A stretch of 64,000 nucleotides of DNA from contig CALVBD010000003.1 of the NCBI GenBank assembly GCA_944325635.1, forward strand, positions 62,001-126,000. The letters run 5' to 3'. The translations under genes were made by a program, and so were the position numbers. Every line of letters begins with the position of its first letter. The stretch's first letter is position 1. Below the pieces are notes generated by a model, which was not told where the DNA came from, did no database searches, and saw nothing but the letters and a program-made list of their open reading frames with translations. The DNA comes from Candidatus Gastranaerophilales bacterium (GTDB lineage: Bacteria > Cyanobacteriota > Vampirovibrionia > Gastranaerophilales > Gastranaerophilaceae). This document shows positions 55,665 to 64,000 of this stretch, one piece after another.

Positions 55665-55757
55665 ATTCGCTATTTTAGCGTAAAATAAAAGAAAAAGGAA
55701 GAACCCTCCCGCATGGAAAAAACAAACAATCAGAAGGGGAATATAAAGGAAAATATA

Positions 55758-58700
55758 ATGTTACAGGAAGCATCTAAAGCAATAAATTCTGCGTTTAATA
55801 ACAGTTTTATCAAAAAATTGAGCCAGTACCTTCACGACTGCGTGAGAGAAGAAGTCAAAAGCTCCACTTTCAGAAACCTTAAAGGGGATAAAGATAACAA
55901 ATGGATTTTCCTGAAAGGCGAAGAAGAACTTTTCACAAAGTGGGATGAATACCTGCGGCTTGACGGAAGCGACAGTAAGTTGACCGAACTTATGATTCAA
56001 TCTGACCGCGACCAGAAAGATAAATATCTGATTTACGGATATCTTTTCCTTGTCGGCAAAAGCTCCAAAACAAGAAAACAAAATGAATTCCTGACCCCGC
56101 TTTTATATATGGGCTGTCATCTTGAACGTAACGGCGTGAATATCAATTGTATTCCGCAGGAAGAAGTTCTCTCACTGAATACCGGCGCCCTCACTGCACT
56201 TATGAAAAAAAGCGACGACGATGATGAGGTTGAATCGCTTCTGGAAGGTCTGCTTGAAGTTGTTCCGACCCTTCCGATTACAGATGAAAAAATGAATATC
56301 TTCCTAACAACCCTGAAATCAATCATTCCGGATATTGATATTTCACTTGACCATAAAGATGATGTTGAAGAAGATAATGTAAAAGATTTCTATAACGAAA
56401 AAATTGACGCATCTAATATTGATGAAGTTATTGAAGAAGAAGAAACAAAACAAAAACAGGTAACGAAACTCGAAAAACTCTCCCTCACCCGACAGTGCGC
56501 GATAATCCTTACAAAACGCCCGACCGTGACGGCAGGAGTTTTGCATGAATTAACTCAAATTGCGGAAAAACCGAGCGGCATTTACCGTGAAACCGCACTC
56601 AATATTGTAAATGAAGAATTCGCGCTCTCAAAAGAAAAAAGTGTCCCGATTAAAGAGATGAAAGAAATCAAAGATTTCTACCCCGTAACCCCTTTATCTT
56701 TGAGCGATTCGCAGGAAAAAGTTATTAAAAATATTGAAAATAATAAATTCATAGCAGTTCAAGGCCCTCCCGGAACAGGTAAATCACAGACAATCGTAAA
56801 CCTTGTCGCACACTTAATCGCAAACGGTAAAACAGTTCTTGTCGCCTCCCGCATGGATAAAGCGGTCGATGTCGTCGCTGACCGCCTGAATGACCTTGGC
56901 GCACCTTTCCTTGCACTCCGCGCCGGCAGATTGAATTATCAAAAACAACTAAGCTACCAGCTTCAAGACCTTCTTTCAGGCAAAGTCGATATTGACAGCG
57001 AATATGAGGACAGCCTCTTTGCAGATGTCGACGATATGAAAAGTCATATCAATATCCTCAAAGAAAGCGAAAACAAATGCGAAAAAATTATTAAACTTGA
57101 AAACGACTGGCGCAATTTATCCGCGGAAACTCAAATGCATGAAAATTCCATCGGCGATATGCAGTTTATCAAGACCTCCCTCAAAAAGCCGGAACTTGAT
57201 ACAATTTCCGCACTTATAAAAACTCTTGAACACAACATGGAAAAAACAGGATTTCTGGCAAATATCGCAAACTACGGCGCCGTCAATACCCTGAAAAAAC
57301 TTCTTAAACTAAAATCTTTTGACGTAACTTTTGAAAACCTTACGCGCCTAAAGCAGGAACTTGAAGTCGCAGGAATGATTTATAACCTGCGCAAAATTGA
57401 AGCGGAAATTCAAAAAACAGGCAACCTCCACGTCCTATGCGAACAAATTAAACAGTTAAAGAAAAAACAAAAACCGCTTGCAATTAACATTCTGAAAAAC
57501 CGCCGGCGTGAAGCGCTGAAAGGAATATTACGCGACCAGATTAAATGCCAGAGATTAAAAGTCCACGCACTTTCACTCGTTTCCACACGCCGCCGCCAGC
57601 AAAGCCATATTATGGAAACCGAAGACTTTAAACCAATCCTCGAAGCCTTCCCTTGCTGGTGCGTAACAACCTTTGCAATCTCAGGCTCGCTTCCGCTAAA
57701 ACCGGGATTATTTGATGTTGCAATTATTGATGAAGCATCACAATGCGACATAGCAAGCTGTTTCCCGATACTTTACCGTGCGAAAAAAGCCGTTATCGTC
57801 GGCGACGATAAGCAGCTGCCGCACCTTTCTTTCCTTGAAAAAGCTAAAGAACAATCTTTCCTTTCCCAATACGGAATTCCTGAAAAATATCAATTGATGT
57901 GGCGTTTCAGAACAAATTCCATGTTCGATTTAGCAGACTATTACTCAATGAATTCCGTAATGCTTGACGAACATTTCAGAAGCCTTCCGCCAATTATTGA
58001 ATTTTCAAACCGTGAATTCTACGGCGGCAGAATGCGTGTTATGAAAAAAGATGTAAGTGACGAGCCGGTACTGGAAACGGTTATTGTTCCTGACGGCAAA
58101 GTAGATTTTGATGCCACACGAAATCTTCCCGAAATTGAAGCACTTGTAAAACGCCTGTACGATATAATAGTCGAAGACGAACGCAAAAACCCCGATAAAC
58201 CTGTTTCTATCGGCATAATCTCTCCTTTCAGGGCGCAGGTTGAACAATTAAAAATATCGGTTTCAAAAGTTCTCTCTGATCACATGATTCAAAAACATCA
58301 GGTAGAAATTGGTACCGCACATACATTCCAGGGTGATGAACGCGATATAATCCTTATGTCATGGGCGTTTGCAAATAACAGCTTCCCGCAGAGCTTAACA
58401 TTTTTACAGAAACCAAACCTCTTTAATGTTGCGATTACCCGCGCAAGATACAAGGTTATAAACTTTGTATCAAGAGATCCGAAAACTTTGCAGGAAGGAC
58501 TGTTTAGAGATTACATGTCCTACATAGAAGAATATACAAATAAACGAGAAGCCCTTAAAAATTGCAAAATTGACGAAAATATTTATAAAAACAATCTTGA
58601 ACGGGAAATCGCGGAACAAATCCGCACCCTCGGTCACACCGTAAAAGCAGGGGTGGAAATTGCAGGCTTAAGTGCTGATTTACTGGTTGATGATAAACTC

Positions 58701-58859
58701 GTCATAGAAATTGACGGAGTTGAAGACAGTATAAAATCTGCGGTTTCCAATATGAAAAAGCAATCCATAATCGAGCGCTGCGGCTTCCCCGTACGCCGCG
58801 TGACATACCGGGAATGGCAGTATTCACAAAACGCTTGCCTCGATCGTCTGCTTGTGTAA
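55758..58859 (+). CDS. superfamily 1 helicase with C-terminal PD-(D/E)xK-like domain
   Basis: A 1033-residue enzyme. The N-terminal 300 residues are not recognised. Helicase motifs: QGPPGTGKSQTIVNL (Walker A, about residue 330), IIDEASQCDIASCF (motif II), VIVGDDKQLPHLSF (motif III), LDEHFRSLPPIIEFSNREFY and GTAHTFQGDERDIILMSWAF. Then come ITRARYKV and a coiled-coil insert between motifs I and II (about 400-560). The last 90 residues, AGLSADLLVDDKLVIEIDGV, look like a DUF559/PD-(D/E)xK nuclease core. A Dna2/Sen1-like repair or antiviral role is possible. AAAGGAAAATATA precedes the ATG at 55758; ATG at 55713 is an alternative. Confidence 0.8.
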   Translation: MLQEASKAINSAFNNSFIKKLSQYLHDCVREEVKSSTFRNLKGDKDNKWIFLKGEEELFTKWDEYLRLDGSDSKLTELMIQSDRDQKDKYLIYGYLFLVGKSSKTRKQNEFLTPLLYMGCHLERNGVNINCIPQEEVLSLNTGALTALMKKSDDDDEVESLLEGLLEVVPTLPITDEKMNIFLTTLKSIIPDIDISLDHKDDVEEDNVKDFYNEKIDASNIDEVIEEEETKQKQVTKLEKLSLTRQCAIILTKRPTVTAGVLHELTQIAEKPSGIYRETALNIVNEEFALSKEKSVPIKEMKEIKDFYPVTPLSLSDSQEKVIKNIENNKFIAVQGPPGTGKSQTIVNLVAHLIANGKTVLVASRMDKAVDVVADRLNDLGAPFLALRAGRLNYQKQLSYQLQDLLSGKVDIDSEYEDSLFADVDDMKSHINILKESENKCEKIIKLENDWRNLSAETQMHENSIGDMQFIKTSLKKPELDTISALIKTLEHNMEKTGFLANIANYGAVNTLKKLLKLKSFDVTFENLTRLKQELEVAGMIYNLRKIEAEIQKTGNLHVLCEQIKQLKKKQKPLAINILKNRRREALKGILRDQIKCQRLKVHALSLVSTRRRQQSHIMETEDFKPILEAFPCWCVTTFAISGSLPLKPGLFDVAIIDEASQCDIASCFPILYRAKKAVIVGDDKQLPHLSFLEKAKEQSFLSQYGIPEKYQLMWRFRTNSMFDLADYYSMNSVMLDEHFRSLPPIIEFSNREFYGGRMRVMKKDVSDEPVLETVIVPDGKVDFDATRNLPEIEALVKRLYDIIVEDERKNPDKPVSIGIISPFRAQVEQLKISVSKVLSDHMIQKHQVEIGTAHTFQGDERDIILMSWAFANNSFPQSLTFLQKPNLFNVAITRARYKVINFVSRDPKTLQEGLFRDYMSYIEEYTNKREALKNCKIDENIYKNNLEREIAEQIRTLGHTVKAGVEIAGLSADLLVDDKLVIEIDGVEDSIKSAVSNMKKQSIIERCGFPVRRVTYREWQYSQNACLDRLLV

Positions 58860-58978: not shown

Positions 58979-59097
58979 GACCCTGTTGAATAGAAAAGGG
59001 TCATAAATAAACTGGAACATTTGTATTTGTTTTCGAAACGATAGCGTGAGCATGTGCGGAAGCGTATTGAGAAAATAAATACAAATGTTCTATTTCC
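58979..59097 (+). ncRNA. candidate structured RNA upstream of tmRNA
   Basis: A small hairpin GACCC/GGGTC (58979-59002) is followed by a long one: GAACATTTGTATTT (59015-59028) pairs exactly with AAATACAAATGTTC (59077-59090), with TTTTC/GAAAA pairing further in and a G+C-richer apex. It lies between a promoter at 58879 and tmRNA at 59163. It could be a separate small RNA or a processed tmRNA leader. No known family recognised. Confidence 0.4.
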
Positions 59098-59162: not shown

Positions 59163-59552
59163 GGGGACGTTTTGGATTAGACAGGATGTTTGGTTGAAAC
59201 AGGCTGCGAGTCCGTGCGCTGTTCACGGTTATCAACGAGCAAACCAAATTAAATGCTAACAATGTTGTAAAAGCAGACTTCTCTAGAGCTTATGCTTTAG
59301 CAGCGTAGTCGCTATTTAGCTACTTGTATTTCCCAGCTTGCCGGAGATATGAGTCCACGATGCAAGCGGCAGTACGTTGATGACGGTAGGCGTATCAAGA
59401 TAACCGTTAAAGGTTAGTGTTTCCGGAAAAAACACTTTGGATTATTTAAAAGGTTTTGATATTCCCTGAATAGTCCGAGAAAATTAATATCTACACCCGT
59501 AGAAGCTTGTTTAGATCCATTTTGGACGCGGGTTCGACTCCCGCCGTCTCCA
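59163..59552 (+). ncRNA. ssrA: transfer-messenger RNA (tmRNA)
   Basis: Rescues stalled ribosomes by trans-translation. The 5' end GGGGACG pairs with 3' CGTCTCC; the T arm GGGTTCGACTCCC is at the 3' end and CCA is not encoded. The tag frame starts at GCT (59255) and ends at TAG (59306-59308), giving ANNVVKADFSRAYALAA: the ALAA end marks proteins for proteolysis and the ANN start is like cyanobacterial tags. One-piece form, about 390 nt. Confidence 0.96.
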
Positions 59553-59597
59553 GTTTTTAGTCCACAAAAGGACAATAAGACCATTTTGAAAGCGTTG

Positions 59598-59624
59598 AAA
59601 GCCCGCTGTTGGCGGACTTTTTAA
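59598..59624 (+). terminator. tmRNA terminator
   Basis: AAAG-C-CCGC, loop, GCGG-A-CTTT with one mismatch, then T-rich sequence. It lies 46 bases after the mature tmRNA end. Confidence 0.65.
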
Positions 59625-59731
59625 TAACGAAAAACAAACAGAGAATTTATTTTATTAAATTTCTCTGATTTTTAATGCTTATTTTTATTGAAATTCTCTC
59701 TTTGCAAGAGACCTAGTCCAAAATCATTATA

Positions 59732-60268
59732 TTATTCCTTATTAAATTCATTTTTTTTATTATCAACTTCTTTTGTTATTAAAATATGCATAATTTTCAG
59801 TATTGAATACAAAGAATCAAAAAATAACAGTATGAAAAGATATGTTAAAAATATTAGTAAGTTATTTACACTAATGCTAATTACATTAATATTAATCAAA
59901 TCAGTAAGTTTCTTAAAATCACAAGATATTAAAAGTAATAAAATAATATCAGTAATAGAAAATAAAATAGATGCTGAAATAATCTTTAAGCATTTATTCA
60001 TAACTTCCAGTTTTAATTTTTGAAGTTCTTCTCTTGATTTAATACTGATATTAGTATCTATCCCTTTAATCATATCTATAAGCAGTAATAGCAAATTAAA
60101 AGATAAAGCTGTAAAAATCGAAAAAGAAGCAATTAATGCATTAACAAATTTCTCAGGTATTATTGGAATAAAAAATGTTAATAATATTGCTAATAAAATT
60201 AATAAAACCAATAAAAATAAAGGATGTTTTTTTGTACAATAATATTCTTTTAAAACTAACATAATCAT
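59732..60268 (-). CDS. four-helix membrane protein, second gene of a possible RexAB-like pair
   Basis: A 178-residue, very hydrophobic protein with four membrane helices (about 16-34, 40-64, 97-112 and 125-150). A charged helix (KSREELQKLKLEVMNKCLK) lies between helices 2 and 3, and the tail is charged. It starts 2 bases after the stop of the 310-residue gene (AGG-TAG-T-ATG). The second in-frame ATG at 60262 is also possible. Four-helix topology and gene order recall lambda RexB, an ion channel that aborts infection, but no sequence motif proves it. No known family was recognised. Confidence 0.65.
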   Translation of the reverse strand: MIMLVLKEYYCTKKHPLFLLVLLILLAILLTFFIPIIPEKFVNALIASFSIFTALSFNLLLLLIDMIKGIDTNISIKSREELQKLKLEVMNKCLKIISASILFSITDIILLLLISCDFKKLTDLININVISISVNNLLIFLTYLFILLFFDSLYSILKIMHILITKEVDNKKNEFNKE

Positions 60269-60269
60269 A

Positions 60270-61202
60270 CTACCTATTATTATCTATTAAAGAGTTTAAA
60301 TACTCAATAGCCAAAGGATTAATTACATTATACTGAGGATGAACATTAATATCTTCTAATTCATTAGAAATATCATATATTGCATTAATTTCATCTGGTT
60401 GATCTAATCTTATTGTTTTCTGTTTTCCATTAACATCAAAAGTAGCATTAATTTCAGTTGCTACAAACTCATGTAATCCTACTAAATTATTAACAGCATC
60501 TATATTTGCATTTCCATTTGCAATATTAGATAATACTCTTTGAAATATATTTAAATTACGATTTCTTCGGCTTCGAATTGTAAATTCGTAAGTAGCTAAA
60601 TTTTCAACATCTCTATTATCATTTGCAAATCTTTCCTCTAAAGTATTATTAGGAGAATTAAAACTTGAAAGAGTAATTTTTTTAACACTTCCATCTCTTA
60701 AATACATGTCCATTAATCTTCTTTGAGGCAAAGGCTCTATTTCAAGTGTAAAGTTTGGAAAATTTTCAAAAAATTGTCGTCTCATTAAATCTGTTAAAAC
60801 TTGCTTTACCGAAATACGTCGAAATCTTTCTAAAATAATGATTCCTAAAGTATTAGCCGGGATATGAAATAAGTAATATAACGGTATACATTCAGAATCT
60901 TCTGCTTCCTTATTATAACGAATCTGGTTAATATTATTTACATTTCTTATTTCAGCAGGAATCCCCCCTTCGCCAGATAAAAATTGCCCAGAAATTCGTC
61001 TATTATTTGTATCAGAGTTAATTGACAATACAGTAAAGGCCTTTATACTGTTAGAATTAGTAAAAAATCTATTAGTCCATGAACCCAAGAATTCTTGAAC
61101 AAAATTCATCATATCAGTATTATCCACATCATCCAAATTCACATATCTATTTGAATTTCTTTCCTTTATTCTAAATGCATAAGCCATAAGTCCAATAGCC
61201 AT
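60270..61202 (-). CDS. unknown soluble protein, first gene of a possible RexAB-like pair
   Basis: A 310-residue protein with no signal or membrane helix. N-terminal AYAFRIKERNSNRYVNLDDV; a hydrophobic strand with LYYLFHIPANTLGIIILERF, then KQVLTDLMRR; then LEIEPLPQRRLMDMYLRDGS; and a C-terminal mixed part. From memory, lambda RexA has F-L-F-x-x-G-D-T-I-G and V-x-IEPL motifs in the same order. This is a motif-level resemblance only. AAAAGGAGTAATTT is a strong ribosome-binding site. It is expressed with the downstream four-helix protein. No family assignment is safe. Confidence 0.6.
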   Translation of the reverse strand: MAIGLMAYAFRIKERNSNRYVNLDDVDNTDMMNFVQEFLGSWTNRFFTNSNSIKAFTVLSINSDTNNRRISGQFLSGEGGIPAEIRNVNNINQIRYNKEAEDSECIPLYYLFHIPANTLGIIILERFRRISVKQVLTDLMRRQFFENFPNFTLEIEPLPQRRLMDMYLRDGSVKKITLSSFNSPNNTLEERFANDNRDVENLATYEFTIRSRRNRNLNIFQRVLSNIANGNANIDAVNNLVGLHEFVATEINATFDVNGKQKTIRLDQPDEINAIYDISNELEDINVHPQYNVINPLAIEYLNSLIDNNR

Positions 61203-61233
61203 AAATTACTCCTTTTAATTTTGTTAATTATAT

Positions 61234-61267
61234 ATTGAATTATTTCAATTGTCTATTAAATATAGAC
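61234..61267. promoter_or_regulatory. two adjacent palindromes upstream of the two-gene operon
   Basis: ATTGAA-TTAT-TTCAAT (61234-61249) and GTCTAT-TAAAT-ATAGAC (61251-61267) lie between the recombinase stop and the 310-residue gene. They may be an operator, a terminator of the recombinase gene, or part of an attachment site. Confidence 0.4.
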
Positions 61268-61302
61268 ACATGGCTAATATAAAAATTACAAATCTTAAAA
61301 TT

Positions 61303-62913
61303 TTAATTCATTTTAAATAATCCTTGTAAACTCAAGCTTTCGGTTTGAGTTCCGGTTAAAATTTGTTCGGTTAATTCAGGGGAAATATATTTTAGATTTA
61401 GGATGTTTCGGATGTATTTTGAATCTTTTAAGCCTTCTTCTGTTTGTAAATCTTCAATAGTTTTGCCTGATTGTATTTGCTTGTGATAATAAAAACTTTT
61501 TACTATCGCATTTACAAGATATAGATTTGGTTCAGGGGTATCATATTCTTTTGCATTCAAAATCAAAATATTATCATTTCGTGACGGCTGTGTGATTTTT
61601 ATTTTTTTAGTAATCGTAATCGGGTTAAATTTTTCATTTCTATCAGGGACAATAATTTTTTGGTTACTAGCCAACGCATTCAATACATTTATCAAAGAAT
61701 TTGAATTTATTGTAATTTCGATTGAGTTTTTGGATATAATAATTTTATGAATAATAGCTCTGATTAGTTTTGGCTCTGAGTAATCTTTAATATTCTGTGC
61801 CGTATAAATAAGTTTGTGTTGTTTACTAACTTCAAAATCTTTTACAAGTCTTTGAGTCTGTTCTTTATCTTGTAAAAATTCTTTTGTTGTTTCGACTACA
61901 AATTTTTCAACTTCGCCTGCGGGGATTTTTGAAATTGTACCAACTTCGCCGTCATTGTAATTCTTTAAAGAAGTGCTAACATAATATCTGTATCGCCTTT
62001 TATGGCTATTACTGTGGCTTGGAGTCATTAAATTATTTTTATCATCAAAAATCAAACCTGCAAGCAACGAATTTGAAGAACATTTTGTTCCACAAGTTTT
62101 GTCAACTTTATTTTCATATAATAATTTTTGTACTTTTTCAAAAATTTCATTGCTAATAATAGCTTTATGCTCCCCGACATAAACTTTATCTTTATGCGTA
62201 ATTTTTCCGATATAAACCTTATTAGCAAGTAAATGGTACAACTGACCTTTTGAAAAATTTTTATTAGTTTGTGTTTTAATTTCGTTTTCTTTTAGATATT
62301 GCATCAATTTTGGTACACTTTTTAATTCAAGATATTTGTTAAAAATCATCCGAACTTTTTGGGACTCTTCTTCGTGAATAATAAGTTTTTTGTCTTCTTT
62401 TTTGTAACCTATCGGAACTTTCCCACCCATCCACATTCCTTTTTTCTTGGATGCAGCTATTTTATCTCTAATTCTTTCGCCCGTAACTTCACGTTCAAAT
62501 TGGGCGAAAGATAAGAGAATGTTGAGGGTTAATCTTCCCATTGACGTTGTTGTATTAAATTGTTGGGTTATTGATACAAAAGAAGTTTCATGCCTGTCAA
62601 ATACATCAATAATTTTTGAAAAATCCATAAGCGAACGGGTCAAACGGTCAACCTTATAAACAACAACGATATCAATTCTATCATTTTCTATATCTTTTAA
62701 AAGTTCTTTAAATGCCGGTCTGTCCATTGTACCGCCTGAATACCCGCCATCGTTATATTGCTTTTCTAATAGTATCCATCCCTCATGCATTTGAGATTTT
62801 ATGTAAGCCTCGCAAGCTTCACGTTGTGCATCAAGGGAATTAAAATCTTGTTCAAGTCCTTCTTCTGATGATTTTCGGGTGTATATGGCACAACGAACTT
62901 TCTTTTTATCCAT
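61303..62913 (-). CDS. large serine recombinase
   Basis: Site-specific integrase/excisionase; 536 residues. Resolvase catalytic domain (1-150) has AIYTRKSSEEGL with the nucleophile Ser, DRLTRSLMD and ITQQFNTTTSMGRLTLNILL, then a helical E region. A recombinase domain (about 170-280) and a Zn-ribbon-like CGTKCSS segment follow. The start at 62913 has GGAG before it; the upstream ATG lies inside the DUF2924 gene. Gene order (DUF2924, then recombinase, overlapping by 8 bases) is a known mobile-element pair. Confidence 0.93.
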   Translation of the reverse strand: MDKKKVRCAIYTRKSSEEGLEQDFNSLDAQREACEAYIKSQMHEGWILLEKQYNDGGYSGGTMDRPAFKELLKDIENDRIDIVVVYKVDRLTRSLMDFSKIIDVFDRHETSFVSITQQFNTTTSMGRLTLNILLSFAQFEREVTGERIRDKIAASKKKGMWMGGKVPIGYKKEDKKLIIHEEESQKVRMIFNKYLELKSVPKLMQYLKENEIKTQTNKNFSKGQLYHLLANKVYIGKITHKDKVYVGEHKAIISNEIFEKVQKLLYENKVDKTCGTKCSSNSLLAGLIFDDKNNLMTPSHSNSHKRRYRYYVSTSLKNYNDGEVGTISKIPAGEVEKFVVETTKEFLQDKEQTQRLVKDFEVSKQHKLIYTAQNIKDYSEPKLIRAIIHKIIISKNSIEITINSNSLINVLNALASNQKIIVPDRNEKFNPITITKKIKITQPSRNDNILILNAKEYDTPEPNLYLVNAIVKSFYYHKQIQSGKTIEDLQTEEGLKDSKYIRNILNLKYISPELTEQILTGTQTESLSLQGLFKMN

Positions 62914-63370
62914 TTGCAACTCCAAAAAACTTTTTACCATTCCAATGCGTTCCGGTTATAACATTAGCAACAGCTGAAAGAGTTTTGTAAATTTTGCCTT
63001 TGAAATTAAATCCACCTTCAACTGCCATAACTTCATATTTTTCACCTTTAAACTCACGAATAAATTTTGTTCCAATTGTTACTTCAAACTTTTTGAGCTT
63101 TTTGATATTAATATTCTTTGTCTTTTCATAATTATTAACAAGATTATTTATCTGATTTTGTAACTTACTTGGTAATTTATTATATTGATAATACCAAGTA
63201 AGCTCTTTAACCAAATATGATTTAGTGTAACCTTTTGGTGCGGGCATTTTAAATATTTCTTGCCATTTATTTTTAAGTTCTTTGGTAGTTAAAGATTTTA
63301 AATTATCCATACTTACATTAGTCGCTCTTATTTCAGCTAAAATCAAGCCTATTAACACAATTGTTATCAT
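62906..63370 (-). CDS. DUF2924-family protein
   Basis: A 154-residue protein. The C-terminal signature GGFNFKGKIYKTLSAVANVI, then TGTHWNGKKFFG, is that of DUF2924, a regular partner of large serine recombinases. Its own role is not established. The ATG at 63370 overlaps the TAA of the upstream gene (TAATG), which favours coupled initiation there, though the domain itself begins near an ATG at 63310. The first 20 residues would be hydrophobic and atypical. Confidence 0.78.
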   Translation of the reverse strand: MITIVLIGLILAEIRATNVSMDNLKSLTTKELKNKWQEIFKMPAPKGYTKSYLVKELTWYYQYNKLPSKLQNQINNLVNNYEKTKNINIKKLKKFEVTIGTKFIREFKGEKYEVMAVEGGFNFKGKIYKTLSAVANVITGTHWNGKKFFGVANG

Positions 63371-63599: not shown

Positions 63600-64000
63600 T
63601 TATAAATCACCCGATAAGTAATCTTCATCTAATTTTTTTATTACAAAGGTTCTTTTTACTTGGACTCCAAGATTATATTTAATCATTAGATTTGTAAGCT
63701 CATCTCCATCGATAAGTCGTATAATTTTATTTTTTGCAGCCGCAGCTTTTTGCTGAGCTTTTTCACCAAAATAACTGGTTGTAATAAAAACACCTTTATT
63801 AGTATCTGAACAATCAAGTGCCCCAACAAAATTTTGGATTTCTCTTTCATTTACCTTATTTTCTGAATATCTTTTGGCTTGAAGATAAATTTTACCCAAT
63901 CCAAGTTCATCTTCGTTTATAATCCCATCGATACCTCCGTCATGACTTAACTTTGTCATGGAACCCACACCGTAATTCATTTTTTCCATCAAGTCAATAA
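63600..64000 (-). CDS. Mrr-family restriction endonuclease (C-terminal part)
   Basis: The catalytic domain of a type IV-like restriction enzyme that cuts modified DNA. The frame is open to base 64000, so the N-terminal winged-helix domain lies outside; about 133 residues are visible. The PD-(D/E)xK core is SHDGGIDGIINEDELGLGKI with YLQAKRY following, and GALDCSDTNKGVFITTSYFG, then LIDGDELTNLMIKYNLGVQV. All are as in Mrr. It lies beside the recombinase cassette, so it is probably part of a mobile defence island. Confidence 0.88.
   Translation of the reverse strand, partial: IDLMEKMNYGVGSMTKLSHDGGIDGIINEDELGLGKIYLQAKRYSENKVNEREIQNFVGALDCSDTNKGVFITTSYFGEKAQQKAAAAKNKIIRLIDGDELTNLMIKYNLGVQVKRTFVIKKLDEDYLSGDL

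Follow-up and report, generated by a model that had tools for sequence, protein, structure and literature searches.

The window analysed here, that is the whole stretch of 64,000 nucleotides, carries a pair of adjacent genes on the minus strand, which we call A and B. Gene A (60270..61202) encodes a soluble protein of 310 residues in which a hydropathy scan found no membrane segment. Gene B (59732..60268) follows it and encodes a protein of 178 residues with four hydrophobic segments by the same scan. Only one base (60269) separates the stop codon of A from the start codon of B. The open reading frames and the hydropathy scan thus agree with the first-pass annotation, which had described a soluble protein followed by a four-helix membrane protein with these lengths and this gap. 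A and B are genuine genes under purifying selection, because dN/dS among three species is low for both (0.13-0.16 for A and 0.23-0.39 for B), and the two-gene unit is conserved down to about 23-28% identity. Below, A is treated as a RexA-type cytoplasmic protein and putative infection sensor or activator (from its reading frame, HHalign comparison and dN/dS), and B as a four-helix membrane protein and putative RexB-like effector (from its reading frame, hydropathy, AlphaFold helices, dN/dS and gene order).

The pair lies between the tmRNA gene (59163..59552, plus strand, located by ARAGORN) and a large serine recombinase gene (61303..62940, minus strand; Resolvase 1.8e-39, Recombinase 3.1e-20). 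It had been assigned to a tmRNA-linked mobile island with an Mrr restriction gene nearby. ARAGORN and the domain matches place all of these genes as described, and the island itself is borne out by the recombinase, 16-bp repeats and an empty site. The last 16 bases of the tmRNA gene (attL, 59537..59552, plus strand), identified by blastn and by comparison with the empty site, recur at contig C3:146095-146110 (window-equivalent 84095-84110). In the relative G006 the site is empty, and the tmRNA runs directly into the sequence that here follows the second copy of the repeat. The insert is 24,558 bp long, from 59553 to window-equivalent 84110. Its left arm (59553..59734) is common with a sister island of G009 by sequence comparison. 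A terminator-like hairpin (59603-59615) is present in this arm, downstream of the tmRNA on the plus strand, and the island may supply the gene that it enters with a terminator of its own. A dispersed REP-like repeat of about 70 bp with palindromic ends (CATTTGTATTT...AAATACAAATG) is found at 59013-59091; some 29 copies are present in the same genome and many in G004, G005, G006 and G009.

The recombinase is Ccr-like, with CcrB as its best NCBIfam match (3.6e-40, below the curated cut-off). It is accompanied by a DUF2924 protein (62906..63370, minus strand; PF11149, 9e-34) and then by the Mrr-type (type IV) restriction endonuclease (63600..64000 in the window, with the gene extending to window-equivalent 64505, minus strand; Mrr_N 2.8e-35, Mrr_cat 6.5e-33; PADLOC mREase_IV, 4e-71). 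Further island genes encode a macro-domain protein, a DNA methyltransferase, RhuM (PADLOC PDC-S05), a SIR2_2/ThsA-like protein and a Schlafen-type helicase (PADLOC PDC-S41), and a block that resembles surface-polymer synthesis genes was seen by eye. No recognisable phage structural genes were found in the 24.6-kb island. No CI/Cro-like switch is adjacent to the pair, the nearest HTH gene being located at window-equivalent 64811-65128. The G+C content is 25% in the pair, 29% in the island and 38% in window positions 1-59000. The island is SCC-like by its recombinase, terminal direct repeats and empty site; it shares with SCC elements a Ccr-like large serine recombinase, insertion at the 3' end of a conserved gene, short direct repeats and exchangeable cargo. 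It differs in its target, which is tmRNA here and rlmH in SCC, and in the recombinase, whose scores with the CcrA/B/C models (138, 115 and 91 bits) are far below the curated cut-offs (900, 700 and 900).

The cargo of the window island differs from that of the G009 island from 59735 to about 61345. The G009 island has the left arm and the recombinase as here, and this stretch is replaced by another cassette (L041:13582-14856), which consists of a SocA/Panacea antitoxin-domain gene (PF13274, 3e-19) and a gene for a 278-aa protein with hydrophobic segments. The G009 cassette is a candidate toxin-antitoxin or defence cassette. Because the sister island bears another cassette at this position, the stretch 59735-61345 is a slot in which cargo can be exchanged.

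Eleven distinct intact A genes were found, window included, when the gene of L003/G585 is taken as the same gene as that of the window, and each is directly followed by a four-helix B (11/11). The first-pass annotation had regarded the two genes as one operon, and the search for homologous pairs agrees with it: homologues of A do not mostly occur without the four-helix partner, as B is present at every intact locus. Besides the L003/G585 pair, which is the same as that of the window, the pairs are those of L004/G112 (83% identity), L005/G225 (74%) and G066 (28%, among prophage-like genes by eye), two deeply diverged ones from the host's own family (G002 and G562), one in a cyanobacterium (G216, L014), two on Acinetobacter plasmids, one in the filamentous Pseudomonas phage PfAC16 (L018:412-1883) and one on a plasmid of the haloarchaeon Natrinema salinisoli (NZ_CP084471), in which B (L006:6020-6538) is absent from the PLSDB gene table. 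The pair therefore occurs in Vampirovibrionia, a cyanobacterium, Acinetobacter plasmids, a Pf phage and a haloarchaeal plasmid. Within the 383 genomes of the host family, four near-full and two distant matches were obtained, and this patchy occurrence is as expected for a mobile trait. A copy on a Halobellus plasmid appears decayed, with A and B both truncated and an IS1595 transposase present. Weak matches in G011, G001 and G453 and a B-only match in G023 were judged to be chance or remnants. In PfAC16 the pair forms the first two genes, beside the repressor, which makes it a Rex-type pair in an inovirus.

The surroundings of the pair vary among these loci. In L003 and L005 it also abuts tmRNA. 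In L004 a type I specificity gene is close to the pair and a recombinase gene adjoins it, and in G002 the pair stands directly behind the HsdR and HsdM genes in a type I restriction operon. The pairs of L005, G002, G562 and the cyanobacterium (L057) have no adjacent recombinase. Upstream of A, a Shine-Dalgarno-like AAGGAG (61209..61214, minus strand) was noted, the GGAG of which is kept in L004 and L005. It is preceded by a putative sigma-70-type promoter (TAGACA-17-TATAAT, 61227..61255, minus strand, 11/12 consensus matches) with the inverted repeat ATTGAAATAATTCAAT in its spacer (61234-61249, minus strand), and by a 22-bp element, ATATTAGCCATNTNTCTATATT (61259..61280, minus strand). Sequence comparison found this element to be kept in the window, L003, L004 and L005 (three species), and thus also in L005, where the upstream recombinase gene is absent. 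Since promoter-like sites in the region are not more numerous than in shuffled sequences, the putative promoter and the upstream elements of A are a lead only.

The pair had been called unrecognised. Indeed, neither A nor B could be assigned to a family by single-sequence and small-profile searches of Pfam, NCBIfam, PADLOC, PHROGs and the PDB. The RexA and RexB models of Pfam/PADLOC (PF15969/PF15968) did not match A or B at E up to 1, and the same models matched lambda's own proteins at 1e-97 and 8.5e-92 as a control. Four viral-contig scans returned no relative of the pair. This silence of the databases means little, since the experimentally validated Sbash pair is missed by the PADLOC 2023 model set and neither CarolAnn gp44 nor Sbash gp30 is matched by the RexA and RexB models of Pfam.

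Comparison with these actinophage proteins gave a different result for A. The cyanobacterial A matches Gordonia phage CarolAnn gp44 in tblastn (9e-5). With a nine-member HMM of the A family, CarolAnn gp44 scores 25.0 bits, whereas none of 1000 shuffled sequences exceeds 6.3; Sbash gp30 scores 30.7. HHalign of the A profile against a profile of CarolAnn44, Sbash30 and Sejanus46, the last of which is annotated as 'RexA family abortive infection protein', gave 96.4%, E 1.1e-9 and 284 aligned columns over the full length. The score of 74.4 compares with at most 21.9 for column shuffles and changes little when other member sets are used (73.0 and 76.5). These profile comparisons make A a full-length homologue of CarolAnn gp44 and Sbash gp30, both RexA-type proteins. 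Against four lambda-type RexA proteins the A profile scored 30.2 (E 0.0024), above all 104 shuffles; this score drops to 20-21 with other member sets, a level that 1/80 shuffles can reach. Direct homology of A to lambda RexA is suggested by this weak match, which depends on the members of the profile. The first-pass annotation had pointed to motifs of lambda RexA occurring in order, and in the profile alignment TLGI is opposite TIGF and LEIEPL is opposite VQIEPL, in register. The actinophage and lambda RexA profiles do not detect each other directly in HHalign, and the step from CarolAnn to lambda therefore depends on earlier publications (PMC11077077, PMC6426606).

The AlphaFold model of A was poor (mean pLDDT 47.6) because the alignment had only three usable sequences, from the window and close loci. 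When this poor model was searched with Foldseek against the whole PDB, lambda RexA (8twq_B) ranked second (E 0.24), which is at most suggestive of the two-domain fold of RexA. The best viral-model match in the fold search was an uncharacterised Caudovirales protein (E 3e-6). In VIA-align, RexA was not among the 50 matches listed for A; these were common alpha-beta folds with Z below 8, graded unspecific by the tool.

B resembles RexB in size, topology and position, and likeness in sequence is undetectable. B was considered as a sequence homologue of lambda RexB and this was rejected, the match being no better than shuffles. Against a profile of gp43, gp31 and Sejanus45, the B profile scored 16.2 (E 0.12), with a maximum of 12.8 in 60 shuffles, and this weak match spans only TM1, TM2 and the loop. 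The residues R70 and D73 of Sbash gp31 (YNRVKD) are needed in that protein (PMC6426596), are not known to be essential across the CarolAnn/Sbash family, and have no counterpart in the window B. A loop DP motif that is common to the cyanobacterial, Pf, Acinetobacter and actinophage B proteins is also absent from the window B. The AlphaFold model of B consists of long helices (pLDDT 67), and a fold search with it gave no significant match. Because the match to gp43/gp31 is weak, no RexB match exists and both R70/D73 and the DP motif are missing, the effector role of B is one that we infer by analogy. The earlier reading of the pair as RexA/RexB-like is thus supported, within limits: it is upheld by the match of A to the RexA-type proteins of CarolAnn and Sbash and by the conserved pairing, whereas the relation to lambda RexA is only suggestive and that to lambda RexB is undetectable.

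Among the known systems, CarolAnn gp44/gp43 and Sbash gp30/gp31 (DUF4747/CarolAnn) are like the present pair in the full-length homology of A and in having a four-helix gene directly downstream, and both gene pairs defend against phages (PMC6426606, PMC6426596). Operons of this DUF4747/CarolAnn type have been described behind CapK/CapS in 17 cases (PMC13373217). The proteins have 370/178 residues in CarolAnn, 372/165 in Sbash and 310/178 here, with 16-18% identity. The A protein here is shorter at its C-terminus, its partner differs in lacking the loop residues and motif named above, and the pair is on a chromosomal recombinase island, whereas CarolAnn and Sbash are temperate phages. Lambda RexA/RexB are similar in gene order, sizes, the combination of a soluble and a four-helix protein and the two aligned motifs; the present pair differs from them in matching no Pfam/PADLOC RexA or RexB model and in having no adjacent CI repressor. 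By its description, RexABpp of Pseudomonas putida (PP_5643-5644) is also a RexA-type DNA-binding protein with a four-helix effector and was also recognised by profile or structure only; it differs in its location in a cryptic prophage near a CI-like repressor (PMC12894663). Butters gp30/gp31, by its description, is like the pair in its two-gene layout, weak DUF4747 relation and four-helix partner, and differs in that its effector is the soluble protein (PMC7542560).

Taken together, A and B probably form an abortive-infection system of RexAB type that belongs to the CarolAnn 44/43 - Sbash 30/31 branch and is part of the cargo of the serine-recombinase island in tmRNA. This reading is supported by the homology of A, the conserved pairing and order, the hydrophobic segments of B, purifying selection and the defence-island setting. 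Dimerisation and DNA binding are known from RexA homologues, Sbash gp30 and CarolAnn gp44 among them (PMC6426606, PMC6426596, PMC11077077), and for CarolAnn, Sbash and P. putida RexAB it has been proposed that the RexA-type protein senses infection and activates its partner, which harms the membrane and stops growth (PMC6426606, PMC6426596, PMC12894663). By analogy, A would be a cytoplasmic dimer that binds DNA non-specifically and, during infection, would meet a phage protein or a phage DNA-protein complex. Once triggered, A would switch on B, an inner-membrane protein that would act as a channel or pore and render the membrane leaky. Membrane potential and ATP would then fall, growth would stop and phage would not be produced. 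Dimerisation, DNA binding, the infection trigger, channel or pore action and growth arrest are all presumed for A and B from these relatives.

It is also conceivable, although unlikely, that the roles are reversed as in Butters gp30/gp31, with A as a cytoplasmic antiviral or toxic agent and B as a tether that holds A at the membrane, quiet until infection. A Rex-like pair with such a division of labour is known (PMC7542560, in the summary given by PMC12894663). Conservation is stronger in A than in B (dN/dS 0.13-0.16 against 0.23-0.39), and B is without the loop residues needed in Sbash gp31. However, the homologues of A are CarolAnn gp44 and Sbash gp30, and the CarolAnn and Sbash systems need both genes, with the membrane protein as the proposed effector (PMC6426606, PMC6426596, PMC12894663).

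The remaining explanations do not place defence first. We give little credence to the idea that the pair works like a toxin-antitoxin or addiction module and so prevents loss of the island from the chromosome, any effects on phages being secondary. Such a module would suit a compact two-gene cargo adjoining the recombinase, in a slot that in G009 has a SocA/Panacea antitoxin-domain gene and a membrane protein. Yet the A family is homologous to exclusion systems, the L005 and cyanobacterial (L057) pairs have no adjacent recombinase, and the G002 pair is inside a restriction operon. The absence of a neighbouring recombinase in L005, G002, G562 and the cyanobacterium also weighs against a regulatory role, in which A would bind DNA to control element mobility or gene expression and B would antagonise it from the membrane, and so do the lack of an adjacent CI/Cro-like switch in the island and the fact that the common neighbours are defence genes. 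The fold of lambda RexA resembles that of RdgC, and a recombinase gene does adjoin the pair here and in L004. RexA also acts on the CI-Cro switch, and exclusion may be a by-product of this action (PMC11077077). On balance, we think it highly improbable that regulation is the primary function.

If A and B are a RexAB-type defence system, the kind itself is known. Five RexAB-like systems had been described as of 2026, all from phages or prophages (PMC12894663). What is new is that the pair is carried by an island, that no lysogeny switch lies beside it, and that the family extends to Vampirovibrionia, a cyanobacterium and an archaeal plasmid. The literature searched contained no description of such pairs in Vampirovibrionia, cyanobacteria or archaeal plasmids, which does not prove that there is none. 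Whether exclusion is the real job of Rex or a by-product of its role in the lysogeny switch has been left open (PMC11077077). Pairs that purifying selection maintains within islands and a restriction operon, with no lysogeny switch next to them, favour defence, and they make this question testable. The A-B family is missed by the defence model set of PADLOC 2023. We tentatively propose, at slightly less than even chances, that RexAB-type exclusion is an old and widely moving chromosomal defence of Cyanobacteriota and haloarchaea, carried on recombinase islands and in restriction operons, that the lambda version would be a prophage-borne offshoot, and that exclusion, not lysogeny control, would be the original function.

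Several further genes were noted around these loci. In the island (L046:1503-8673, window-equivalent 76502-83672), a 1006-aa SIR2_2 protein with a ThsA/Dsr1-like N-terminus is followed in a row by unnamed proteins of 469 and 241 aa and the Schlafen-type helicase (PDC-S41); these four are perhaps one multi-gene defence system. Outside the island, immediately left of the tmRNA, a 1048-aa AAA_11/AAA_12 helicase with a C-terminal MTES_1575 nuclease domain (55713-58859) resembles PADLOC PDC-S37 and is also present in G009. In G562 (L055:798-4551), the distant A-B pair is followed by a 677-aa GHKL-type ATPase (HATPase_c_3, 3.2e-15), which is possibly a third component there.
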